Source of the DNA: Neobacillus piezotolerans
GTDB taxonomy: Bacteria; Bacillota; Bacilli; Bacillales; Cytobacillaceae
Direction of reading: 5' to 3'
DNA: 64,000 nucleotides
Assembly: GCF_003362805.1 (NCBI RefSeq)
Contig: NZ_QNQT01000001.1
Location: forward strand, 930,001 to 994,000
The notes under the pieces are model-generated. The model searched no databases and was not told where the DNA came from. It saw nothing but the letters and a program-made list of their open reading frames with translations. A program made the translations under genes and the position numbers. This document shows positions 37,878 to 48,426 of the stretch, one piece after another. Numbering within the stretch: position 1 is the first letter of the stretch; each line of letters opens with the position of its first letter.

Positions 37878-38207
37878 TTACCTGAAAAGTTCTTTATTTA
37901 AATCAATCCATTTCATTATGATTGATTTCAAATCGACCGTATTAAAACACTCTGCCTGCACTTCGTCTGTAAACCCCAAACCTATATTGGTAAAATTCTT
38001 CCCAATCTCTAAGTACACCATGTTGCCTCCGATGGATTCCTTTTCACTCGACCCGTCAAGGACCTTATTAAAATACTCGTAAAAAATTGGGCTACTAAAG
38101 CTTTGCATATCGTCAAACATATATTCAATCAAACTATTTTCTTCTGAAAACCTGAACATCCGCCACTTTCCAACTTGTTTAATTGAAAAATCGTACTTAT
38201 AATCCAT
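37878..38207 (-). CDS. Hypothetical protein, 109 residues
   Basis: Soluble acidic protein, no membrane segment; not recognised. Aromatic-rich segments (GKWRMFRFSEENSLIEYMFDD) and an alternating beta-like pattern suggest a small alpha/beta fold. It is the last gene of a three-gene minus-strand operon, three bases after the preceding stop, so it is translationally linked to a membrane protein gene. An immunity-type role is conceivable but has no direct support. Confidence 0.65.
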   Translation of the reverse strand: MDYKYDFSIKQVGKWRMFRFSEENSLIEYMFDDMQSFSSPIFYEYFNKVLDGSSEKESIGGNMVYLEIGKNFTNIGLGFTDEVQAECFNTVDLKSIIMKWIDLNKELFR

Positions 38208-38210
38208 ATC

Positions 38211-38591
38211 TTATTCTCCAATTAAATCATGTTGCGCAACGTGATTTTCTCTCGCCCGAAGAATTTCATCCACACAAAAGTAAATCAGCGAGGCGCCGAG
38301 GCTGTATACGACCAAGAATTCACCGTTAATCAGGATGAGCCCGAACAGAGTGTGCATCAGGAACCTTGCCAGCAAGGCCATTTTTTTCGATGAAAGTTTG
38401 CTTGAAATATATTCTGCAAAGGAAGCAGCTGCTAGCCCATATGTCATAATGGCTGCGGCGAAGACGAGAAGAACCATCGACATAACGGCTATATCCATCT
38501 CTTTATAAAAATAAAACCAGACAGCAATGCTGGATAAAAGAATCGTCAGCAAGCCGGCTTTAACTTTCCGCATTACAGTTGCCCAAACCAT
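38211..38591 (-). CDS. Hypothetical membrane protein, 126 residues
   Basis: Four hydrophobic segments separated by short basic loops (SSKLSSKKMALL). The C-terminal soluble tail ends HVAQHDLIGE. Not recognised. ATG 38591 follows GGAGGTG; an upstream in-frame start is less likely. Middle gene of the three-gene operon. Confidence 0.68.
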   Translation of the reverse strand: MVWATVMRKVKAGLLTILLSSIAVWFYFYKEMDIAVMSMVLLVFAAAIMTYGLAAASFAEYISSKLSSKKMALLARFLMHTLFGLILINGEFLVVYSLGASLIYFCVDEILRARENHVAQHDLIGE

Positions 38592-38637
38592 GTTCGCACC
38601 TCCACACATTACGTTTTCAATTGCGCATGAACGATTA

Positions 38638-39102
38638 CTAAAAAGATAAATTTACATAGATAATGGAACCTGCCGCTGCAAATAGAGGGATAAAATATGC
38701 AAAAACTGCGGACTTTTTTAGAGGAATATACTTTCCCAATGAGAAAATCACGGCGCCAATCATGATTCCGTAAGTGCCCGGGAACGTCAGCAGACCTGTT
38801 AAGCTTTCTTCAAAAAGACCCAGCCCAAATAGCATCGAGAATAGAATTCCAGCCAGTAAACAATGGGTGATATAGTTCCAGCGGGGGATATATTTTTTCA
38901 AAAGTAAATATGTAAGCACGGTGGCAAGAGTAGTACCGTAAACGAACGGGATAGAATAAACGGATAAAACACTTAAGGAAAATACCCGGTAACCACTCGA
39001 TAAATAAAGCATGCTCAATACAAAATCAAGTAACGGAACAGAAAGCACAAAAGCCATAAAGCTCAACGAACTCCCAATGAAATACCTGTGCAATGTGACC
39101 AT
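38638..39102 (-). CDS. Hypothetical polytopic membrane protein, 154 residues
   Basis: About five hydrophobic segments cover most of the protein, joined by short loops (KKYIPRWNY). Not recognised. GGAGGAACCT precedes the ATG. First gene of the operon, 46 bases ahead of the next one. Confidence 0.68.
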   Translation of the reverse strand: MVTLHRYFIGSSLSFMAFVLSVPLLDFVLSMLYLSSGYRVFSLSVLSVYSIPFVYGTTLATVLTYLLLKKYIPRWNYITHCLLAGILFSMLFGLGLFEESLTGLLTFPGTYGIMIGAVIFSLGKYIPLKKSAVFAYFIPLFAAAGSIIYVNLSF

Positions 39103-39124
39103 AGGTTCCTCCTATAACGGAAGT

Positions 39125-39363
39125 GGAAAACCACATTCTTAAATGTATATTTCGACATTCAGTTTCTTATCCCTTTCAAATTGCGGGAAAATTAGTGGGG
39201 GTATTTAACATTATTTTAGAACCAAACCAACTTAGCAACGGCGATTCGGTTTTCAACGCTTTAAGCAATTTGGAAAGCCTGGAAATTAAAGTTTGAGGAT
39301 ATTTTGCCTTACAAGAATGAAGATGACTCAAGAATGATCATCATTGAGAGAAAGTTTTTTTAA
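39125..39363 (+). pseudogene. Possible decayed gene fragment
   Basis: One frame reads protein-like from about 39125 up to a stop at about 39295 (ending NALSNLESLEIKV); a one-base shift continues as EDILPYKNEDDSRMIIIERKFF to a stop at 39363. No start or ribosome site is evident. I read it as the 3' end of a lost gene with a frameshift, but cannot name the family. Confidence 0.3.
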
Positions 39364-39474
39364 ACATTACCCCGCCCCCCGAAGCAAAATGTTTCCTATT
39401 CCGCCAACTCTGGTATACTCTATCCTATGGGTTAAATGATTAACCTGCAATATTGTAATTTTAGGAGCATTGAG

Positions 39475-40848
39475 ATGTATCAGACTTTTACAACGAAAGA
39501 AAAAATCAAACTAATTTTTGTCATGCTGATTCCGATCCTGATTACCCAGCTTGGGATGTTTTCAATGGTGTTTTTCAGCACCATCATGTCGGGAAAATAC
39601 AATCCCGCGGACCTTGCCGGGGTGGCAATCGGTTCGTCGATCTGGAATCCGGTTTTCGTCGGCCTGAGCGGAATCCTGCTCGCGGTTTCGCCAATTGCCG
39701 CGCAAAAGTTCGGGGAAAAGAAAGGCCACGAGGTTTCCTCAATTCTTTCACACGGCATTTACCTTGCGATTGCGATCGCGCTGATTGTCATCGCAGCGGG
39801 GGCACTTGTTCTGAATCCGCTGTTAAACGCGATGGATCTTGATCCGCGTGTCCATGAAACAGCCCACAACTATTTGGTTAATCTAGGGTTTGGAATTATT
39901 CCTTTATTCATCTTCAACGTGCTGCGTTCATTCATTTATGCGCTTGGCAAAACGAGAATTGTCATGGTTATCCTGCTGATGTCGCTGCCGGTCAATTTCT
40001 TCCTGAACTATGTGCTTATTTTCGGGAATCTTGGCTTTCCGGAACTCGGTGGGGCTGGTGCAGGGATTGCGACTTCCGTGACGTTTTGGGTCATTACGGG
40101 AATAACCGCCTTTATCATAAAAACGAAGGAACCTTTTTCCGCCTATGTGTCTTTCGCCAATTTCAAGGAATTTTCACGGGAGCGGTTTGGGGAAATACTG
40201 AAAATCGGGATTCCAATGGGGTTTTCTCTCTTTTTTGAAACGAGCATGTTTGCCGTCGTAACGATTCTCATTTCAAAATTCAATGTCACAACGATCGCTG
40301 CGTACCAATCGGCTTTGAATATTGTTTCGTTCCTGTACATGATCCCGATTTCAATTTCGATGGCGCAAACCGTACTCGTCGGCTTTGAAGTCGGCGCGCG
40401 AAGGTACCGGGATGCGCGGGCATATAGCTGGCTTGGCATCATCCTTGCAATCATCTCGGCGGCTAGCACTGGAACCCTCGTCGTTCTCTTCCGCGATCAG
40501 GTCGCCGGCCTCTATTCGAATGATGCGGCTGTTATCGCCTTGACAGGTTCGTTCCTGATTTATGCGCTGTTCTTCCAGATTGCCGACGCAATCCAGGTAA
40601 CCGCTCTTGCCGCGCTCCGCGGTTATAAGGACGTGAACCTCGCTTTCATCATGACACTGATTGCCTATTGGCTAGTCTGTTTGCCGATCGGATACATTTT
40701 GGCGCATAACACTGGCCTAGGCGCACCAGGATACTGGATTGGCTTGACAACCGGCCTTTTGGCAGCCGGAATCGCGCTGTCCTTCAGGCTCCTTTATATT
40801 CAGAAACACAAATTTCCAAGCGAAGGCGCTGTGGCAAAAAGCATTTAA
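39475..40848 (+). CDS. MATE family multidrug efflux transporter
   Basis: 457 residues with 12 membrane segments in two homologous halves. MATE landmarks are ITQLGMFSMVFFSTIMSG in helix 1 and, in the second half, QSALNIVSFLYMIPISISMAQTV. It exports cationic drugs or metabolites against Na+ or H+. TTAGGAGC is six bases before ATG 39475. It is transcribed alone and ends at a strong terminator. It lies next to an AT-rich accessory region, but its own base composition matches the core genes. Confidence 0.93.
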   Translation: MYQTFTTKEKIKLIFVMLIPILITQLGMFSMVFFSTIMSGKYNPADLAGVAIGSSIWNPVFVGLSGILLAVSPIAAQKFGEKKGHEVSSILSHGIYLAIAIALIVIAAGALVLNPLLNAMDLDPRVHETAHNYLVNLGFGIIPLFIFNVLRSFIYALGKTRIVMVILLMSLPVNFFLNYVLIFGNLGFPELGGAGAGIATSVTFWVITGITAFIIKTKEPFSAYVSFANFKEFSRERFGEILKIGIPMGFSLFFETSMFAVVTILISKFNVTTIAAYQSALNIVSFLYMIPISISMAQTVLVGFEVGARRYRDARAYSWLGIILAIISAASTGTLVVLFRDQVAGLYSNDAAVIALTGSFLIYALFFQIADAIQVTALAALRGYKDVNLAFIMTLIAYWLVCLPIGYILAHNTGLGAPGYWIGLTTGLLAAGIALSFRLLYIQKHKFPSEGAVAKSI

Positions 40849-40901
40849 TCTGGAAGCTTTATAAATTTTAAATAATATAACTAGATTAAATGTAAAAAAG
40901 A

Positions 40902-40955
40902 GAGGATAGATGAACAGGACTGAAATACCTGTTTTCATCTATCCTTTTTGTATTT
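40902..40955 (+). terminator. Terminator of the MATE gene
   Basis: A long stem aggatagatgaa(cagg)/(cctg)ttttcatctatcct and TTTTT tail. Confidence 0.9.
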
Positions 40956-41063
40956 TAAAAAGATTTTCGGTTCCTACATCCTGTAATTTAGATGTATTTT
41001 TTAAACGTAATTTGTTTTTGTTTGTTACTTAACAGATTTTATAATAATTTGTTTGTTTTTTCG

Positions 41064-41092
41064 TTGACTGAATATAAACAATAATGTAATGT
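41064..41092 (+). promoter_or_regulatory. Sigma-A-type promoter of the DUF2087 gene
   Basis: TTGACT and TAATGT are 17 bases apart and end 64 bases ahead of the start codon. The surrounding sequence is very AT-rich. Confidence 0.6.
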
Positions 41093-41156
41093 GTTTGTAT
41101 ATATACAAACGAAATTTACATATGTTTATTTTTAGCGATAGGAAGTGCTTATTGCA

Positions 41157-41903
41157 ATGGAAGTATCAGATATCTTTTGGAGTGTCTCCTTGGAAGAGCT
41201 GAAAAGGGGGTTTATTCAAGAAAGTGATTCATTTACTTGTCTATTATGTGGTGAAAGAATAGAAAAAGGGATTGTTTATCCTTATGAAAATAGATTGTAC
41301 GAAGCCGAAAGGTATATGCGTATTCATATTGAAAATACTCACCAATCCGTGTTTGAATATTTACTTGGCATGGACAAGAAACTCACGGGTCTAACTGAAC
41401 ATCAAAAGAATCTATTATCCCTTTTTTATCAGGGCAAAAACGACAAAGAAATTCAAATGGAACTAGGCATTGGAAGCGCCTCTACTATTCGTCATCATCG
41501 TTTTGCCTTAAAAGAAAAGGAACGACAGGCAAAAACTTTTTTGGCTATGATGGAATTACTGAAAGAAAAAGATGAATATGCACCAGCTTTTGTACCCGTG
41601 CATAAAACCGCCACAATGGTAGATGAAAGATATGACATTACCCAAGATGAACAAGAGCAATTGGTTAATAAATACTTCTCCGATGGATTATTGACTAAGT
41701 TTCCCCAAAAGGAAAAACAAAGACTTGTGGTCTTAAGAGAAATATCTAACCAACTAAAAAGGGATTACACTTATGATGAGCAGGAATTAAATCAAATTTT
41801 AAAAGGCATTTATGAGGATTATGTTTTAATCAGGAGATATTTAGTCGAATACGGGTTTTTAGACCGTAAATCGGATGGGAGCAGTTATTGGTTAAAAAAG
41901 TAA
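41157..41903 (+). CDS. DUF2087 transcriptional regulator with LuxR-like HTH
   Basis: 248 residues in three parts: an N-terminal zinc-like segment (TCLLCGERIEKG with a further HIENTH), a helix-turn-helix (LTEHQKNLLSLFYQGKNDKEI), and a C-terminal DUF2087 domain (FPQKEKQRLVVLREI to SSYWLKK). A DNA-binding role is likely; the ligand is unknown. ATG 41157 is chosen with TAGGAAG upstream. The codon and base use is AT-rich relative to the flanks. A GIY-YIG gene follows 24 bases later. Confidence 0.85.
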   Translation: MEVSDIFWSVSLEELKRGFIQESDSFTCLLCGERIEKGIVYPYENRLYEAERYMRIHIENTHQSVFEYLLGMDKKLTGLTEHQKNLLSLFYQGKNDKEIQMELGIGSASTIRHHRFALKEKERQAKTFLAMMELLKEKDEYAPAFVPVHKTATMVDERYDITQDEQEQLVNKYFSDGLLTKFPQKEKQRLVVLREISNQLKRDYTYDEQELNQILKGIYEDYVLIRRYLVEYGFLDRKSDGSSYWLKK

Positions 41904-41927
41904 ATTGATAACAGTAGGTGAAAAAAC

Positions 41928-42278
41928 ATGGATCGTAAAAAAGAGTTGAAACAACAATACAAGGAAACATCCGTTGAACCAGGAATTTTTCAGATAAAGA
42001 ATACGATCAACGATAAAATATTTGTGGGAAGTACGAAAAACTTAAAAACCTTAAACGGAATAAAATTCATGCTTGATACAAATGGGTATACCCCCAACAA
42101 AGAACTGCAAAAGGAATGGAACCAGTACGGAAAAGATGCTTTCATGATAGACATACTGGAAAAATTGAAAAAGAATGATGATCCTTATTTTAACGACAAA
42201 GAAGCTTTAATGGCTCTTGAAGAAAAATGGCTAGAAAAGTTACAGCCATATGGAGAACGTGGTTATAACCAAAAATAA
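41928..42278 (+). CDS. GIY-YIG nuclease-like protein
   Basis: 116 residues. GIFQIKNTINDKIFVGS fits the GIY-YIG core (GIF and FVG in place of GIY and YIG), followed by the helix with NKELQKEWNQYG. The motif is degenerate, so cleavage activity is uncertain. It appears to form an operon with the DUF2087 regulator, an arrangement I have seen associated in Bacillaceae. AT-rich. Confidence 0.8.
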   Translation: MDRKKELKQQYKETSVEPGIFQIKNTINDKIFVGSTKNLKTLNGIKFMLDTNGYTPNKELQKEWNQYGKDAFMIDILEKLKKNDDPYFNDKEALMALEEKWLEKLQPYGERGYNQK

Positions 42279-42505
42279 TTAATTCTTTATTCAAACGGAT
42301 TCTAAATGGAGATAATATGACCATTTCCTGGAAAAGACAATAACTTTGTTTGGACAGCGACAAGGCTAATTGGCAATCCTATTGCATTATCAGGGCAGGC
42401 TAATTAACAAAGAATATTTTGACACTTGGAAGAATAACATATATAATTTTAGAAAATTCTATACTAATAGCATTGATGAGAAAAGTAGTTAAGAAAGAAT
42501 ATTTA

Positions 42506-42742
42506 CAGAGAGCTCCTAACTGCTGAAAAGGAGTATTATTCGTCTTAATGAATAAAGCCTCGGAGCTTCTTACCAAGCTAATGATAAATTAGGGATAGTA
42601 AGACGGGTTCTTCCGATATAAGGATAGGGTATGAATGTACCTGATAAGGTTGATATGGTGACATATCAACAAACTGAGGTGGTACCACGAAGTTATAACT
42701 CTCGTCCTCAAGAATTATTTCTTGAAGACGGGAGTTTTTTTA
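42506..42742 (+). promoter_or_regulatory. T-box leader (tRNA-sensing riboswitch) ahead of the methyltransferase
   Basis: GAGAG (42508-42512) opens stem I; its base pairs gagctcc with ggagctt. A perfect stem III gttgatatg/catatcaac ends at 42670. The T-box motif ctgaggtggtaccacg lies at 42674-42689, and the terminator aactctcgtc.../...gacgggagtt with TTTTTTT ends at 42742. TGGT would pair with ACCA, implying a tRNA with discriminator A. At the usual specifier site (after TGAA, 42549-42552) the triplet is TAA. The start codon of the gene is 33 bases after the terminator. Confidence 0.82.
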
Positions 42743-42774
42743 TTAGATAAATTAAATTAGAAAGGAGATTTAGT

Positions 42775-43578
42775 ATGGATAATTTAGAAAGTGTAAGGAA
42801 ATTTTATGATGAAACAGTAAATGATGAGTGGGAGCGACTCGAACGCCATAAAGTGGAGTTTGAACTTAGTAAACGCTTTATGAACCGTTATATTAAGCCT
42901 AATGAAAAAGTATTGGACCTCGGCGGCGGTCCTGGTAAGTATTCACTTTTTCTTGCTGAACTTGGTTGCGATGTGACATTGGCTGACCTTTCACAAAAGA
43001 ATGTAGATTTTGCATTGAATAAGGCAAAAGAAATTGGGCTCTCCCTTAAAGGTTTGCAAGCTGATAGTCGTGATTTGTCAAATATTGAGGATGGCCAATT
43101 TGACTATGTGCTATGTATGGGTCCTATGTATCATCTGAGAAGCGAGAATGATAGGGCAAAAACTATTAGGGAATGTTTAAAAAAGTTAAAGCCAAACGGA
43201 ATCATTTTTGTGGCATTTGTATCTTCTTATGCCTTTGTGTGGGACTATCTAATTCGTAACCCTGAATTTATTTTAGATAAAGAAAGAAAATCACAACTCT
43301 ATAAAATAGTCGAAGATGAAGATTTTGCTGGACAAGGGTTTTCAGATAACTTTTTTATTTCTCCTAAAAATGTACTTCAGTTTTTTAATCAATTTAACCT
43401 TAAGAAACTGCATTTACTGAACAGCGAAAGTTTTTTATATCTTCGTGAACCAGAACTACTTGAACAGCAACCTGAAGTTATAAATGCTTGGTTGGATCTA
43501 GCAGAAAAGGTATGTGAAAGAGAGGACTTTCTTAGTTTAGCTGAACATATTATGTATGTAGGAAAAAAAACTGAATAA
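42775..43578 (+). CDS. Class I SAM-dependent methyltransferase
   Basis: 267 residues. Motif I VLDLGGGPG is at 46-54, the acidic end of strand 2 in ADLS at 70-73, and motif IV-like DYVLCMGPMYHL near 110. The substrate is unknown. The C-terminal half is longer than in minimal UbiE-type enzymes. AAAGGAGATTT precedes the ATG. Expression appears controlled by the T-box leader, which is unusual because such leaders normally precede aminoacyl-tRNA synthetase or amino acid genes. AT-rich like its neighbours. Confidence 0.88.
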   Translation: MDNLESVRKFYDETVNDEWERLERHKVEFELSKRFMNRYIKPNEKVLDLGGGPGKYSLFLAELGCDVTLADLSQKNVDFALNKAKEIGLSLKGLQADSRDLSNIEDGQFDYVLCMGPMYHLRSENDRAKTIRECLKKLKPNGIIFVAFVSSYAFVWDYLIRNPEFILDKERKSQLYKIVEDEDFAGQGFSDNFFISPKNVLQFFNQFNLKKLHLLNSESFLYLREPELLEQQPEVINAWLDLAEKVCEREDFLSLAEHIMYVGKKTE

Positions 43579-43594
43579 ATCCTATTCAACTTAT

Positions 43595-43632
43595 AGGTGC
43601 TTTGATCCAAGAAGGATTAAGGCACCTTTTGT
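43595..43632 (+). terminator. Terminator of the methyltransferase gene
   Basis: Stem aggtgctttgatcc/ggattaaggcacct and TTTT tail. Confidence 0.82.
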
Positions 43633-43747
43633 TGAAATCCTTATTGAGCGAAAGGGGCAGCAGTTTAGTTCTATTTCAATGACAAAAAGAGGTATGTAGG
43701 AATTTATAGAATACTTTTAACCAGTTTATAAAATTAGGAGGACATGG

Positions 43748-44821
43748 ATGATTTATAACGAGGTTGTTAAAATCTGTGATACATATTTACTTCCGTTAGT
43801 ATCAGAGTTGTACGGTTTGAAAGGTTATGAAATCAAGCGGGTCAAGGCACATATTGGAGGGCGTAATGTTGTTTATACTTGTGAGAAAGAGGGCACCGAC
43901 TCAAAAATACTCAGAATCGCCTTCTTAAAGGACAGAAGCCTGGAAAATGTTCTGGGTGAAGTTGAGTATATCAGGTATTTGTTCGAACATGGCGGAAGTG
44001 TCTCGGATGTACTCAACTCCCGGAACGGGAATTTTCTGGAAGAGATAAATCATAATGATCATACCTTTTTTATCTGCTTATTTCAGAAGGCTAAAGGAAA
44101 AATGCTTGTAGAAAATAAGTATAGGTATCGGGAAGGAGTTCCAATTACCGAATATTATTATAATTGCGGTAAAGTCCTTGGGAAACTGCACCAAATATCA
44201 AAAGGATATACTCCTGTCCATAGTCGATATAGTTTTTTTGACAAATACAATGCTGAATATATCGAGAAACTGATACCTGGTTCGTTACCTCATCTGAAGG
44301 AGAAGCTGTTAGACCTCCTTAAAACCTTAAAAGGATTGGACATGAGCCGAGAGTCTTTCGGTATGGTCCATTTTGATTACAACGATGGGAATTATTCGAT
44401 AGATTTTGATAACGGGCAAATAACCGTATATGATTTTGATAATTCATGCTACTGTTGGTATATGTTTGACCTGGCAAGTCTCTGGACAAACGGAGTTGGC
44501 TGGATACAAAATGAACCAGACCCCGATAAACGGAAAAAGTTCATGGATGATTATTTTGAAACAGTCCTCGAGGGATACAAATCTGAGACCGGAATCGAAA
44601 AATCGATGTTGGATATGTTGCCCTTATTTATCGAAGTAAGTCTCATGGAAAGTATTGTAGATGCATTTGAGGTAATGCGGAACAATGGTGAAAACCCGGA
44701 GTGTGATGAGGAGTTGTCATATCTCATAAAATGTCTGGAAGACGATATCCCGTATTTAGGATTTTTCCATAATATTTATTCGAGTAAAGAACCCTTTGAA
44801 TCTGAGAAAAGAAAAGTTTAG
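43748..44821 (+). CDS. APH/choline-kinase-family phosphotransferase
   Basis: 357 residues. The catalytic loop is HFDYNDGN (208-215) with the Asp base and Asn, and the metal Asp follows in VYDFDNS (227-233). The protein kinase-like fold phosphorylates small molecules: aminoglycosides, homoserine, choline or sugars. No subfamily marker identifies the substrate. AGGAGG stands six bases from the ATG. AT-rich; its own unit, ending at a terminator. Confidence 0.88.
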   Translation: MIYNEVVKICDTYLLPLVSELYGLKGYEIKRVKAHIGGRNVVYTCEKEGTDSKILRIAFLKDRSLENVLGEVEYIRYLFEHGGSVSDVLNSRNGNFLEEINHNDHTFFICLFQKAKGKMLVENKYRYREGVPITEYYYNCGKVLGKLHQISKGYTPVHSRYSFFDKYNAEYIEKLIPGSLPHLKEKLLDLLKTLKGLDMSRESFGMVHFDYNDGNYSIDFDNGQITVYDFDNSCYCWYMFDLASLWTNGVGWIQNEPDPDKRKKFMDDYFETVLEGYKSETGIEKSMLDMLPLFIEVSLMESIVDAFEVMRNNGENPECDEELSYLIKCLEDDIPYLGFFHNIYSSKEPFESEKRKV

Positions 44822-44904
44822 TCTTTTTGTAGCAGCCTTTGCTTTGATAATAGTGTGAAAATATGTACTTAAGGTATCGGTGCTGATGTCTAACCCACTA
44901 CTAT

Positions 44905-44940
44905 AAAAAAGCTCTTAGCTTAATGGCTGGGAGCTTTTTT
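44905..44940 (+). terminator. Terminator of the APH-family gene
   Basis: Stem aaaaaagctcttagc/ggctgggagctttttt. Confidence 0.88.
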
Positions 44941-45032
44941 CGTGCTAATCTTACTGCTAAAGTGTCTGCTGATTTAGTTGTGTATTTCTGTGCGAAAAGC
45001 AAAGTTAATTAATAATTTATACTTCAAAATCG

Positions 45033-45205: not shown

Positions 45206-45583
45206 ATGTTCGATCTTGACCTTAGGAGCCGGAAGCCGATTTATGAGCAGCTCGTCGATAAGCTGAAGGAGCTGATTGTCAATGAAGTGCTGAAGCCTGA
45301 TGAGCAGCTGCCATCGGTCCGGACACTGGCGCAGGAATTGACAATTAATCCGAATACGATCCAGAAGGCGTACCGCGAGTTGGAGATTCAAGGGTTCATT
45401 TACTCGCTGAAGGGCAAGGGCAGTTTTGTCAACCCGATTGCAAAAGGGATGGATAAGGAGAAGATTTCACAGGTGAAGCAGGAACTGGAAAAACTTATCT
45501 TAGAAGCGTTGTATCTTGGCGTGACGGTGGAGGAACTGCAGGCCATGATTGTAGAGACAGATGCCAAAAAGGGGGCAGACTGA
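45206..45583 (+). CDS. GntR family transcriptional regulator, YtrA subfamily
   Basis: 125 residues. The winged helix (about 10-75) has IYEQLVDKLKELIV, QLPSVRTLAQEL, NPNTIQKAYRELE and the wing YSLKGKGSFV, and the short C-terminal helix pair is the YtrA hallmark. It is expected to repress its own ABC transporter operon, and to be released by cell-envelope stress in B. subtilis relatives. AGGGGG precedes the ATG; the next start is one base past the stop. Confidence 0.92.
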   Translation: MFDLDLRSRKPIYEQLVDKLKELIVNEVLKPDEQLPSVRTLAQELTINPNTIQKAYRELEIQGFIYSLKGKGSFVNPIAKGMDKEKISQVKQELEKLILEALYLGVTVEELQAMIVETDAKKGAD

Positions 45584-45584
45584 A

Positions 45585-46484
45585 ATGATTCAGGTAAAGC
45601 ATATTAGAAAAGCATTCAATAGCCAGCCTGCCGTCCAAAATGTGGACATGAACATTAGGCAGGGTTCGATATACGGATTGATTGGTTCGAACGGAGCGGG
45701 GAAGACGACACTCATCAAAATGCTGGCGGGGATATACAAGCAGGACAGCGGCGAAATGACGATGGACGGGGAGCCGGTTTTCGGAAACACTGCACTGAAG
45801 GACAGGATTTTCTTCATCCCGGACCAGCCGTACTTTTTGCCTCAGTACACAACGAAGCAGATGGCCCATTTTTACCGGAGCATGTACTCCCGCTGGAACG
45901 GGCAGCGTTTTGAAAAATTGAAGGAAGTTTTCGAGATTGATATGAACAAAAAAATCCATACCTTCTCAAAAGGGGTCCAGAGGCAGGTTGCGTTTTGGCT
46001 GGGGCTTTCGACGATGCCCGATTTCCTGATCCTCGATGAGCCGATGGATGGGCTTGATCCGGTTGTCCGCAGGAAGGTGAAGAACCTGCTCGTCCAGGAT
46101 GTCGCCGAAAGGGAAATGACGATTTTGGTTTCATCCCATAACCTGCGTGAGATTGAGGATTTTTGCGACCACATTGGGATTTTGCATAAAGGGCAACTCC
46201 TTCTCGAAAAAGACATTGATGACCTGAAATCGGACATCCACAAAGTCCAACTGGCATATAAGGACGGAATCCCGGAAGGCTTGACGGAACAATTGAGCGT
46301 GCTGCATTCCGAACGGCGGGGCAGCGTGCAGGTCCTGATTGTGAGGGGCAGCGAAGACGAAATAGTAGATTTGATCAAAAAGACCAGCCCGGTCATTTTC
46401 GATTGGCTTCCGCTTACCCTTGAAGAAATTTTCATCTATGAAATGGGGGATATCGGTTATGCCATCAAGAATGTCATTGTTTAA
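45585..46484 (+). CDS. ABC transporter ATP-binding protein, YtrB-like
   Basis: 299 residues. Walker A GSNGAGKTT, signature region FSKGVQRQVAFW (GVQ in place of SGGQ), Walker B FLILDEP and H-loop SSHNLRE. The degenerate signature is common in YtrB-type ATPases. The ATG follows AAAAAGGGGG across the regulator's stop. It pairs with the large permease gene, which overlaps its 3' end by 26 bases. Confidence 0.9.
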   Translation: MIQVKHIRKAFNSQPAVQNVDMNIRQGSIYGLIGSNGAGKTTLIKMLAGIYKQDSGEMTMDGEPVFGNTALKDRIFFIPDQPYFLPQYTTKQMAHFYRSMYSRWNGQRFEKLKEVFEIDMNKKIHTFSKGVQRQVAFWLGLSTMPDFLILDEPMDGLDPVVRRKVKNLLVQDVAEREMTILVSSHNLREIEDFCDHIGILHKGQLLLEKDIDDLKSDIHKVQLAYKDGIPEGLTEQLSVLHSERRGSVQVLIVRGSEDEIVDLIKKTSPVIFDWLPLTLEEIFIYEMGDIGYAIKNVIV

Positions 46485-48426
46485 TAAGGATTTGATCCTC
46501 CAGATTGGGCGAAGTGTCGGCTGGATTTCAATTGTGTATTTTCTCGTCCTGCTCTTTATCCTGCCAATCCGGATGATGATGCTGTACGCGGACAGGGAAA
46601 TGCACGTATGGACGCCGAGGGAAACTTTGTTCCTGTACGAATTTGGCATTCAATTCATCCTTATGGTCACCGCGCCTGTTTTGCTGTCGGTTTTCCTTTA
46701 CCGTTTCCTGCACGTCAGGCAATGGTCGGATCTCATGCACAGCTTGCCGGTAAAAAGAGCGCATATTTATAACTTCTATACTGTCGCGGGATTGGTTTTC
46801 CTGGCGCTTCCGATTATGCTGATCGCGGCAATTATTCTGGTCTTGCACACCATGTATGGCTGGAACTTGTATATGTCTGTCGAAGATATTGCAGCTTGGG
46901 CGGGGCTGACGCTTGTTTTCAACTTCGTCTTTTACCTAGCAGGTGTTTTTGTCGCAATGGTCACAGGAATTTCCGCGGTGCAGGCGGTACTAACGTATAT
47001 TTTCCTGCTGTTTCCGGCAGGGATATCTCTTTTGGTCATTTACAATCTTGGCGAGCTGTTGTACGGCTTTCCAAGCAGCTACTATAGAATCCGCAATATT
47101 GAATACTTATCGCCGCTTACGCATTTGACCGTCTTCGAAAATCCAACTGTGCATATCGGGTGGAAGCACGTGCTAATCTATCTGGCAGTATCGGCGGTTC
47201 TGTATGTGCTCGGCCTATTCATCTATCAAAAAAGGAAAAGTGAAGCCGCCTCGGAAGCGATCGCATTTGATTCGCTGAAAGTTGTTTTTAAATTCGGAGT
47301 GACCGTCTGCACAATGATGGTTGGTGGAATGTATTTCGGCAACTACCAGCATACGTTTGGATGGATGGCATTTGGCTATGCATTTGGGGCAATCATTGGG
47401 TACTTTGTCGCCGAAATGGTTCTTCAAAAAACATGGCGCGTCTTCAATAACCTTCGCGGATTTGCAATTTACGCTGGCGTAATCGCGTTAATGATTTTGG
47501 GTCTGCAGGCCTTTGGATCGTATGAAAAGCGCATTCCCGCTAAAAATGAGATTAAGAGCGTAATGGTTTCAAATTTTGTGGTCAGCTACCAGGATGAAAC
47601 GGATCAGCTGTATCGCCCGGTTCCTCTGAAGGGCGAAGAGTCGATTGAAATGGCGAGGAAACTTCATTCTGTAATTATTGAACGGAATAGAACCAACCGA
47701 AAGGATCCACGGATCACGCAGCCGTTTTTCTTTACGTACGAACTGAAAAATGGCGGAAAGCTTGTCCGTGAATACAACATAAACCCGGATGAATATGACT
47801 CTTGGCTCAGGCCTCTACAGTTAACAAGCGAATACAAGCATTCCATCAATCCGATTTTCAAAATAAAAGAATCATCGCTTAGGCAAATCGTTATTACCGA
47901 TGGTGTGGGATTAAACAAAAAAGTAATGATTTCCGACAGCCGTGAGGCCCAGGAAGCCCTGTCCATCCTAAAAAAGGAAGTCGAAAACGAGTCGTATAAA
48001 GAATGGAAAGACCCGGTCGGCACAAGGTCTTACATCGAAATCCAGTCGTACCAGGGAGTTGTCCAGATTGAATTTAAAAAATCCTATACCGAATTTGCCG
48101 CTTGGCTAGATGAGAAGGGGCTATTCGAGGAAGCAAGCATTTCTCCCGACGATGTAGACTATATTGCCGTTGTGGAAAATTCCCGGGAAGTGATGAGCCA
48201 ATTTGCGGGTGATTTGTTCGACGATCCGATGAAACAGGTCCTAAATAAGCTGATCATTAAAGAGAAAATGGACATCCGGGAGGCTCTAGACCAATCGGGT
48301 CGGGGCTGGGACGAGAATGATAGCTATGTAGCGGTTGTTGTTTATAAACACCACGGGGTGAAGGAAATGAGGTCCATTGATGAAAAAAATGTGCCGGATT
48401 TCATTAAGAAGCATTTTGATAAATGA
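46459..48426 (+). CDS. Large ABC-2-type permease, YtrC/D-like
   Basis: 655 residues: about eight to ten membrane helices in the first 355, then a soluble C-terminal region of about 300 residues with no recognised domain. This is longer than YtrC or YtrD and may represent their joint counterpart. ATG 46459 lies inside the ATPase gene with GGGGG nine bases before it. Substrate unknown. The ECF sigma gene follows 49 bases later. Confidence 0.8.
   Translation: MPSRMSLFNKDLILQIGRSVGWISIVYFLVLLFILPIRMMMLYADREMHVWTPRETLFLYEFGIQFILMVTAPVLLSVFLYRFLHVRQWSDLMHSLPVKRAHIYNFYTVAGLVFLALPIMLIAAIILVLHTMYGWNLYMSVEDIAAWAGLTLVFNFVFYLAGVFVAMVTGISAVQAVLTYIFLLFPAGISLLVIYNLGELLYGFPSSYYRIRNIEYLSPLTHLTVFENPTVHIGWKHVLIYLAVSAVLYVLGLFIYQKRKSEAASEAIAFDSLKVVFKFGVTVCTMMVGGMYFGNYQHTFGWMAFGYAFGAIIGYFVAEMVLQKTWRVFNNLRGFAIYAGVIALMILGLQAFGSYEKRIPAKNEIKSVMVSNFVVSYQDETDQLYRPVPLKGEESIEMARKLHSVIIERNRTNRKDPRITQPFFFTYELKNGGKLVREYNINPDEYDSWLRPLQLTSEYKHSINPIFKIKESSLRQIVITDGVGLNKKVMISDSREAQEALSILKKEVENESYKEWKDPVGTRSYIEIQSYQGVVQIEFKKSYTEFAAWLDEKGLFEEASISPDDVDYIAVVENSREVMSQFAGDLFDDPMKQVLNKLIIKEKMDIREALDQSGRGWDENDSYVAVVVYKHHGVKEMRSIDEKNVPDFIKKHFDK

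Follow-up and report, generated by a model that had tools for sequence, protein, structure and literature searches.

A lysine-specific T-box leader precedes a gene for a SAM-dependent methyltransferase in the window, the whole stretch of 64,000 nucleotides of Neobacillus piezotolerans DNA that was analyzed. We propose, with a confidence that stops somewhat short of even, that this transcriptional T-box controls the methyltransferase as an inducible self-protection against inhibition of lysyl-tRNA synthetase (LysRS). The leader, its lysine specificity, its family and the classes of genes that the family carries (its payloads) can be read directly from the DNA. The riboswitch itself belongs to a known family and has an ordinary specifier codon; what is unusual is the payload. 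Induction, the toxin, and the substrate of the methyltransferase are what we infer.

Leader structure and specifier codon

A sequence-only reading of this DNA had placed a T-box ahead of a SAM-dependent methyltransferase ORF. This arrangement was confirmed by a full-length match to the Rfam T-box family RF00230 (118.2 bits, E 1.5e-25, model positions 1-219; gathering cut-off 93 bits), which was the sole Rfam match at the gathering threshold in the whole 64 kb. The span then proposed, 42506-42742, does hold the T-box, but the true extent is larger, as the leader begins at 42464 and a candidate promoter at 42419. The following features were identified:

42419..42447, + strand: candidate sigma-A-type promoter, by eye (TTGACA 42419-42424, 17-nt spacer, TATAAT 42442-42447)
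42464..42712, + strand: T-box leader, Stem I to antiterminator (RF00230 covariance match)
42550..42557, + strand: Stem I specifier bulge GAAUAAAG (frame rule, own-genome leaders, 43-leader alignment)
42554-42556, + strand: specifier codon AAA (Lys), within the bulge
42675..42710, + strand: antiterminator hairpin (folds at -8.3 kcal/mol)
42677..42689, + strand: T-box element AGGUGGUACCACG (from sequence; conserved among aligned relatives)
42680-42683, + strand: UGGU, complementary to tRNA-Lys ACCA (from sequence and discriminator A)
42699..42741, + strand: intrinsic terminator, hairpin 42699-42734 and 7-T run to 42741 (-20.8 kcal/mol)
42762..42767, + strand: ribosome-binding site AAGGAG (from sequence)
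42775..43578, + strand: methyltransferase gene, 267 aa, ATG at 42775 (Pfam Methyltransf_25)
43748-44821: APH-family protein, downstream of the methyltransferase, within an AT-rich stretch

The terminator and antiterminator overlap at 42699-42710 and are mutually exclusive (-20.8 vs. -8.3 kcal/mol). The region of the candidate promoter could be aligned upstream of the GNAT leaders L050 and L051. Compared with 28 relatives, the elements of the window leader are intact, whereas UAGU replaces UGGU in L064; given this conservation, the window leader does not resemble a relic in decay.

The standard specifier frame takes nucleotides 2-4 counted from the 3' end of the bulge (as set out in an extract of PMC7778990), and on GAAUAAAG this rule gives AAA, with UAA in the -1 frame and AAG, also a lysine codon, in the +1 frame. 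The stop codon TAA, which the sequence-only reading had taken as the specifier, was a one-base misreading of AAA. The strain's own genome gave 30 T-box matches, and an amino acid could be assigned from the following gene in 27. These genes were named first by reading their translations; NCBIfam confirmed 25 of the 27, the two left out being L011 and L026, the upstream leaders of the tandem pairs L011/L017 and L024/L026. The right codon lay exactly six bases before GAG in 22 of the 27 leaders and seven bases before it in three (L019, L026, and L029), while two (L010 and L022) were unscorable. The window leader has AAA at six bases and TAA at seven, and because of the three exceptions the spacing to GAG alone would not settle the specifier. 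An alignment of 43 leaders showed AAA in all 15 leaders of LysRS genes and CAA in the same columns in all six leaders of glutaminyl-tRNA synthetase (GlnRS) genes. CAA was also present in L122, whose downstream gene was not found, and AAA was also present in the window leader, 19 GNAT-group leaders and L069. The base preceding AAA varied, being T, A, G, C or absent. Based on the frame rule, the own-genome leaders (22/27) and the homologue alignment, we assign the specifier as AAA (Lys). The shifted readings AAT (Asn) and ATA (Ile), which had been put forward as options, were ruled out by the same alignment.

In the standard frame, AAA matches the anticodon of the host tRNA-Lys(UUU). Three copies of this tRNA were read and all had discriminator A, with 3' ends of ...GGCTC-A-(CCA) in two copies and ...GGCTC-A without an encoded CCA in the third. 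The sequence-only reading was right that TGGT requires a tRNA with discriminator A, which agrees with tRNA-Lys (...GGCTC-A-CCA). No tRNA with a UUA anticodon was found among the 29 tRNA loci scanned (30 fetched for 53 tRNA matches). A specifier that is really UAA, or any other codon that does not stand for lysine, might be suggested by the UAA that comes straight after GAA in the window and by the three of 27 gene-assigned own-genome leaders whose codon lies one base further from GAG. Set against the 43-leader alignment, the scanned tRNA loci and the published frame rule (PMC7778990, in the same extract), we consider it extremely improbable. The sequence-only reading had also envisaged a normal codon serving a nearby amino acid pathway. 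The codon is a normal one, but no lysine-pathway gene was found among the neighboring ORFs of the window, which were inspected by eye. The usual T-box target is a gene in the pathway of the sensed amino acid, and the methyltransferase is not such a gene.

Leader family, payloads and the host genome

DNA homology and the AAA specifier place the window leader in a Lys T-box family of LysRS and GNAT loci. DNA searches for related leaders gave matches in 60 of 193 genomes at the level of the taxonomic family (E 1e-3), many of these matches being short and lying at the terminator end. At the level of the order, such leaders were found in 119 of the 397 genomes sampled (E 1e-10). The downstream genes were read in four batches of leader loci, with the weaker places of the 397-genome search set aside. 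In the first batch (29 loci besides the window), a RimJ/RimL-type GNAT lay directly downstream in 16 (truncated in L061) and a further GNAT (L063) was placed by coordinates from the GNAT search. Class II LysRS followed in nine loci of this batch, no GNAT or payload was in reach in two (L064 and L066), and in one (L069:460-1416, minus strand) the gene under the Lys T-box of the family encodes a 318-aa protein that has no match in Pfam or NCBIfam. The second batch (15 loci) held class II LysRS in five, GlnRS in six, an MFS transporter in two (seen at L120 only as an 85-aa start), class I LysRS (LysK) in one and no payload found in one. In the third (13 loci), GNAT was present in five and class I LysRS in eight, with an interrupted start in L203 and L206. 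The fourth batch comprised 40 of the 44 strongest places in the 397-genome search without an earlier locus, and held class II LysRS (18), class I LysRS (6), GNAT (6), GlnRS (4), MFS (4) and DUF5662-like proteins (2; L242 by Pfam at 1e-33, L233 by its likeness to L242). Genes of the first three batches were classified mainly by reading translations, and those of the fourth by BLAST against reference LysK, GlnRS, LysRS-II, GNAT and MFS proteins named by NCBIfam or Pfam.

The closest leaders to that of the window were the GNAT leaders L050 and L197 (92% DNA identity); other full-length GNAT leaders were 73-90% identical and LysRS leaders at the loci read were 67-78% identical. In a midpoint-rooted maximum-likelihood tree, the window leader grouped with the GNAT leaders L050-L052, at a node without printed support below a node of 86. 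From the GNAT side, a leader was present at 16 of the 30 GNAT loci fetched, and no T-box was found upstream at the other 14, three of which were 84-90% identical. At L158, a T-box was found, but downstream of the GNAT. The GNAT copy L140 lacked the sensor part of the leader and kept a terminator piece directly before the gene. In comparisons of the GNAT with PDB, 1nsl and 2fck were followed by MccE 3r95, third of 20 matches (E 6.5e-10). Control of lysS by a T-box is described for only a few Firmicutes (in a passage of PMC2494555), and Lys, Glu and Gln leaders are given as the least common T-box classes (in a part of PMC7778990).

Taken together, the LysRS (either class), GlnRS, MFS and RimJ/RimL-type GNAT payloads would form a coherent set of responses to a poisoned LysRS or GlnRS. 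The LysRS genes under these leaders are here called spare copies, a putative designation. On a broader reading, which we hold to be possible if doubtful, the family would form a T-box-inducible detoxification regulon in which uncharged tRNA serves as the alarm and interchangeable payloads are carried in one mobile leader. These payloads would be another LysRS or GlnRS, an acetyltransferase, an exporter, DUF5662, and an N-methyltransferase inactivating a LysRS inhibitor.

A search of the own genome for LysRS gave a single full-length match, with 41% identity to the LysRS-II found under these leaders. The GNAT has no close counterpart there: its best-scoring match reached 29% identity and no match exceeded 33%. 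The methyltransferase is thus the only payload that we saw under a Lys leader of this family in the genome. The other own-genome leader of the family is a Gln leader, L020 (C23:437574-437808), a CAA T-box before a GlnRS gene (NCBIfam glnS). Most bacilli make Gln-tRNA indirectly, without a glutaminyl-tRNA synthetase. In other genomes, an MFS transporter is also found under Gln leaders related to L020.

Several synthetases were doubled under the own-genome T-boxes, with two each of trpS, ileS, tyrS and thrS. One of the two ileS genes (L002) encodes a MupA/MupB-like IleRS, and serves as a precedent in which a resistance-type synthetase stands under a T-box. In addition, a Leu (CTC) T-box was located directly before a HIT-domain protein (L004:1501-2229, C36:172810; Pfam HIT 4.3e-10). 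Among the 19 HIT loci scanned, own included, a T-box lay upstream in five (33 HIT places found). HIT-type enzymes can cleave aminoacyl-nucleotide antibiotics, and the HIT protein under a Leu T-box is possibly a second detoxification payload that fits the same idea.

The GC content of the window is 0.32-0.37 at 41000-45000, compared with 0.44-0.48 at 39500-41000 and 45500-48000 and 0.36-0.41 again at 38000-39500. The AT-rich stretch holds a DUF2087 protein, a GIY-YIG protein, the T-box with the methyltransferase, and the APH-family protein. A repeat suspected upstream of several loci gave 0 matches in a pattern search of the window. The APH-family protein coming next within this stretch would suit resistance to a different drug class, such as an amino-acid-derived or ribosome-directed antibiotic, with the methyltransferase merely induced as lysine charging falls. 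We find this quite improbable, as leaders that most often drive LysRS have retained their specificity for Lys, an indication that LysRS itself is the target.

Methyltransferase and distribution of the pair

The controlled gene encodes a class I SAM-dependent methyltransferase (Pfam Methyltransf_25, E 6.7e-18). As the sequence-only reading had held, it is not an ordinary amino-acid gene, and neither Pfam nor NCBIfam gave it a specific family assignment. Among named N-methyltransferases, it matches glycine/sarcosine N-methyltransferase at 57.9 bits in NCBIfam, whose equivalog cut-off is 350 bits, and is not a member. In profile comparisons with PDB, the best match was 2avn, which is functionally vague, and the glycine/sarcosine N-methyltransferase 5gwx was matched at 5e-13. 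Structure prediction from the single sequence gave a pLDDT of 42. Compared with L045, the gene had a dN of 0.047 and a dS of 0.35.

Several of the class I methyltransferases matched in PDB act on small amines. Together with the account in an extract of PMC7778990 that T-boxes sense uncharged tRNA whatever the cause, this would be in keeping with a role in the metabolism of lysine starvation, in which the substrate of the methyltransferase would be lysine, a metabolite derived from it or a component of translation, and no drug is involved. Such a role seems distinctly unlikely to us. No lysine-pathway gene was seen adjoining, the sister payloads are synthetases, GNAT and an MFS transporter, and the gene is rare, being present in 8 of 397 order genomes including the own one (E 1e-60 or better). 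In the taxonomic family, it was found in 3 of 193 genomes, again with the own one (protein search, 1e-60).

For the pairing with the METHYLTRANSFERASE, ten distinct methyltransferase loci were found at at least 72% identity: the window, L045 (Bacillus timonensis AF060A6; L189 carries the same sequence), L046 (Neobacillus terrae, on a contig shared with L080), L079, and L190-L195. An intact T-box was present only in the window, a remnant of the leader terminator in two (L045 and L195), and no trace of the leader in the other seven (L046, L079, L190-L194). L045 is 90.6% identical in DNA from window position 42702 on, inside the terminator, and everything upstream differs; L195 retains window positions 42693-42774 at 78%. 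Two copies of the methyltransferase are broken, L046 by a frameshift and L195 by an internal stop, so the gene is dispensable in places. Protein-side search of genome contigs gave four methyltransferase loci, two of them close, and no second intact pair of leader and methyltransferase was found in the 193 family genomes, the 397 order genomes or the genome contigs. Thirteen distant homologues (L032-L044) gave no Rfam match at E 0.01. Loss of the sensor with a terminator piece kept directly before the gene was thus seen three times, at L140, L045 and L195.

Part of this leader's terminator survives at L045 and L195, so the pairing probably arose before this strain. In our view, the leader and the methyltransferase were fused at an earlier time and the sensor was then lost on two occasions; alternatively, the two could have been joined at the terminator repeatedly. 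The sequence-only reading had allowed that the leader could be a relic of a deleted synthetase gene, unconserved with the methyltransferase, and half of this holds. The leader family does serve putatively spare LysRS genes and GNAT, and the pair is intact in one of ten loci, but the two other loci with terminator pieces speak against a lack of conservation. From these sequence comparisons, we conclude that the leader is recruited from the LysRS/GlnRS/GNAT/MFS/DUF5662 family and that the methyltransferase is a replacement payload.

Recruitment could also have produced a working leader with an accidental payload, if recombination near the terminator placed the promoter and T-box of a GNAT gene ahead of the methyltransferase, whose expression would then respond to lysine without particular benefit. 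The nearness of the window leader to GNAT leaders, the AT-rich island at 41000-45000 (GC 0.32-0.37), the other methyltransferase copies without an intact leader, and the exchange or loss of leaders at the terminator region, also seen at the GNAT copy L140, are all consistent with such an event. We nevertheless judge it rather unlikely, as the elements of the window leader are intact, the terminator pieces at L045 and L195 suggest a pair that predates the strain and persisted, and the family's other payloads fit together in function.

Proposed response to LysRS inhibition and known systems

In the self-protection that we propose, transcription would end at the terminator (42699-42741) as long as tRNA-Lys is charged. 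When uncharged tRNA-Lys accumulates, its UUU anticodon would pair with AAA (42554-42556) and its ACCA end with UGGU (42680-42683), so that the antiterminator would form and the methyltransferase would be made. A toxin that blocks LysRS would raise uncharged tRNA-Lys and switch on the protective gene, and the payload would either bypass the block (another LysRS) or remove it (an acetyltransferase, or here the methyltransferase). The methyltransferase may N-methylate the inhibitor, for example at the alpha-amine of a lysyl-nucleotide or lysine analogue. The earlier suggestion that it may modify an amino-acid-derived drug survives, with a putative substrate. We know of no N-methylation of a synthetase inhibitor as a resistance mechanism. 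The acetyltransferases MccE and RimL are reported to inactivate synthetase inhibitors of the aminoacyl-nucleotide type, whose vulnerable site is the alpha-amine (as described in a section of PMC7916415). N-methylated leucyl- and glycyl-sulfamoyladenosine showed no inhibition of the tested synthetases comparable to that of their parents (in the results given in an excerpt of PMC3817062), and for this reason a methyltransferase could do the job of the acetyltransferase.

The RF00230 match, the AAA specifier, discriminator A, the intact leader elements, the payload set, the low dN/dS and, among named N-methyltransferases, the match to the glycine/sarcosine enzyme count in favor of self-protection. 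Intact pairing at only one of ten methyltransferase loci, the patchy GNAT pairing (16/30), the glycine/sarcosine score far below the cut-off, the vague 2avn match and the two broken copies count against it. A limited literature search found no natural LysRS inhibitor acting on bacilli. In the literature searched, which covered sources other than T-box catalogues, we recognized no report of a T-box paired with a methyltransferase or a GNAT, or of the mixed payload set. If the proposal is true, T-boxes would be alarms for poisoned tRNA synthetases and not only nutrient sensors, and genes under rare Lys and Gln T-boxes would be candidate resistance enzymes whose leader reveals the target (LysRS or GlnRS). 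A further implication would be that natural inhibitors of bacterial LysRS and GlnRS await discovery where these bacteria live.

Compared with known systems, the T-box leaders of LysRS genes (class I lysK, class II lysS) are of the same RNA family as the window leader, with an AAA specifier, UGGU and 67-78% DNA identity, but their payload is a synthetase and not a methyltransferase. The Lys T-box with a RimJ/RimL-type GNAT has a leader of 92% DNA identity, and both payloads are small group-transfer enzymes; the GNAT, however, is an acetyltransferase and its pairing occurs in many genomes, whereas the methyltransferase pairing is intact in one. MccE and RimL offer the likeness of a proposed blocking of the inhibitor's alpha-amine (in the same section of PMC7916415), with the sister GNAT matching MccE 3r95. 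In contrast, the window methyltransferase belongs to an unrelated protein family, and its activity on inhibitors is presumed. To our knowledge, T-box control of MccE or RimL has no known example. Glycine/sarcosine N-methyltransferase (5gwx) is likewise a class I methyltransferase acting on a small amine, with a significant profile match, although the window enzyme scores 57.9 bits against 350 and lies outside that family. Finally, in resistance to mupirocin through IleRS2/MupA, a second gene answers a poisoned synthetase (as outlined in a part of PMC10485003), to which L002 of the own genome is comparable; that system, however, bypasses the target and does not modify the inhibitor.
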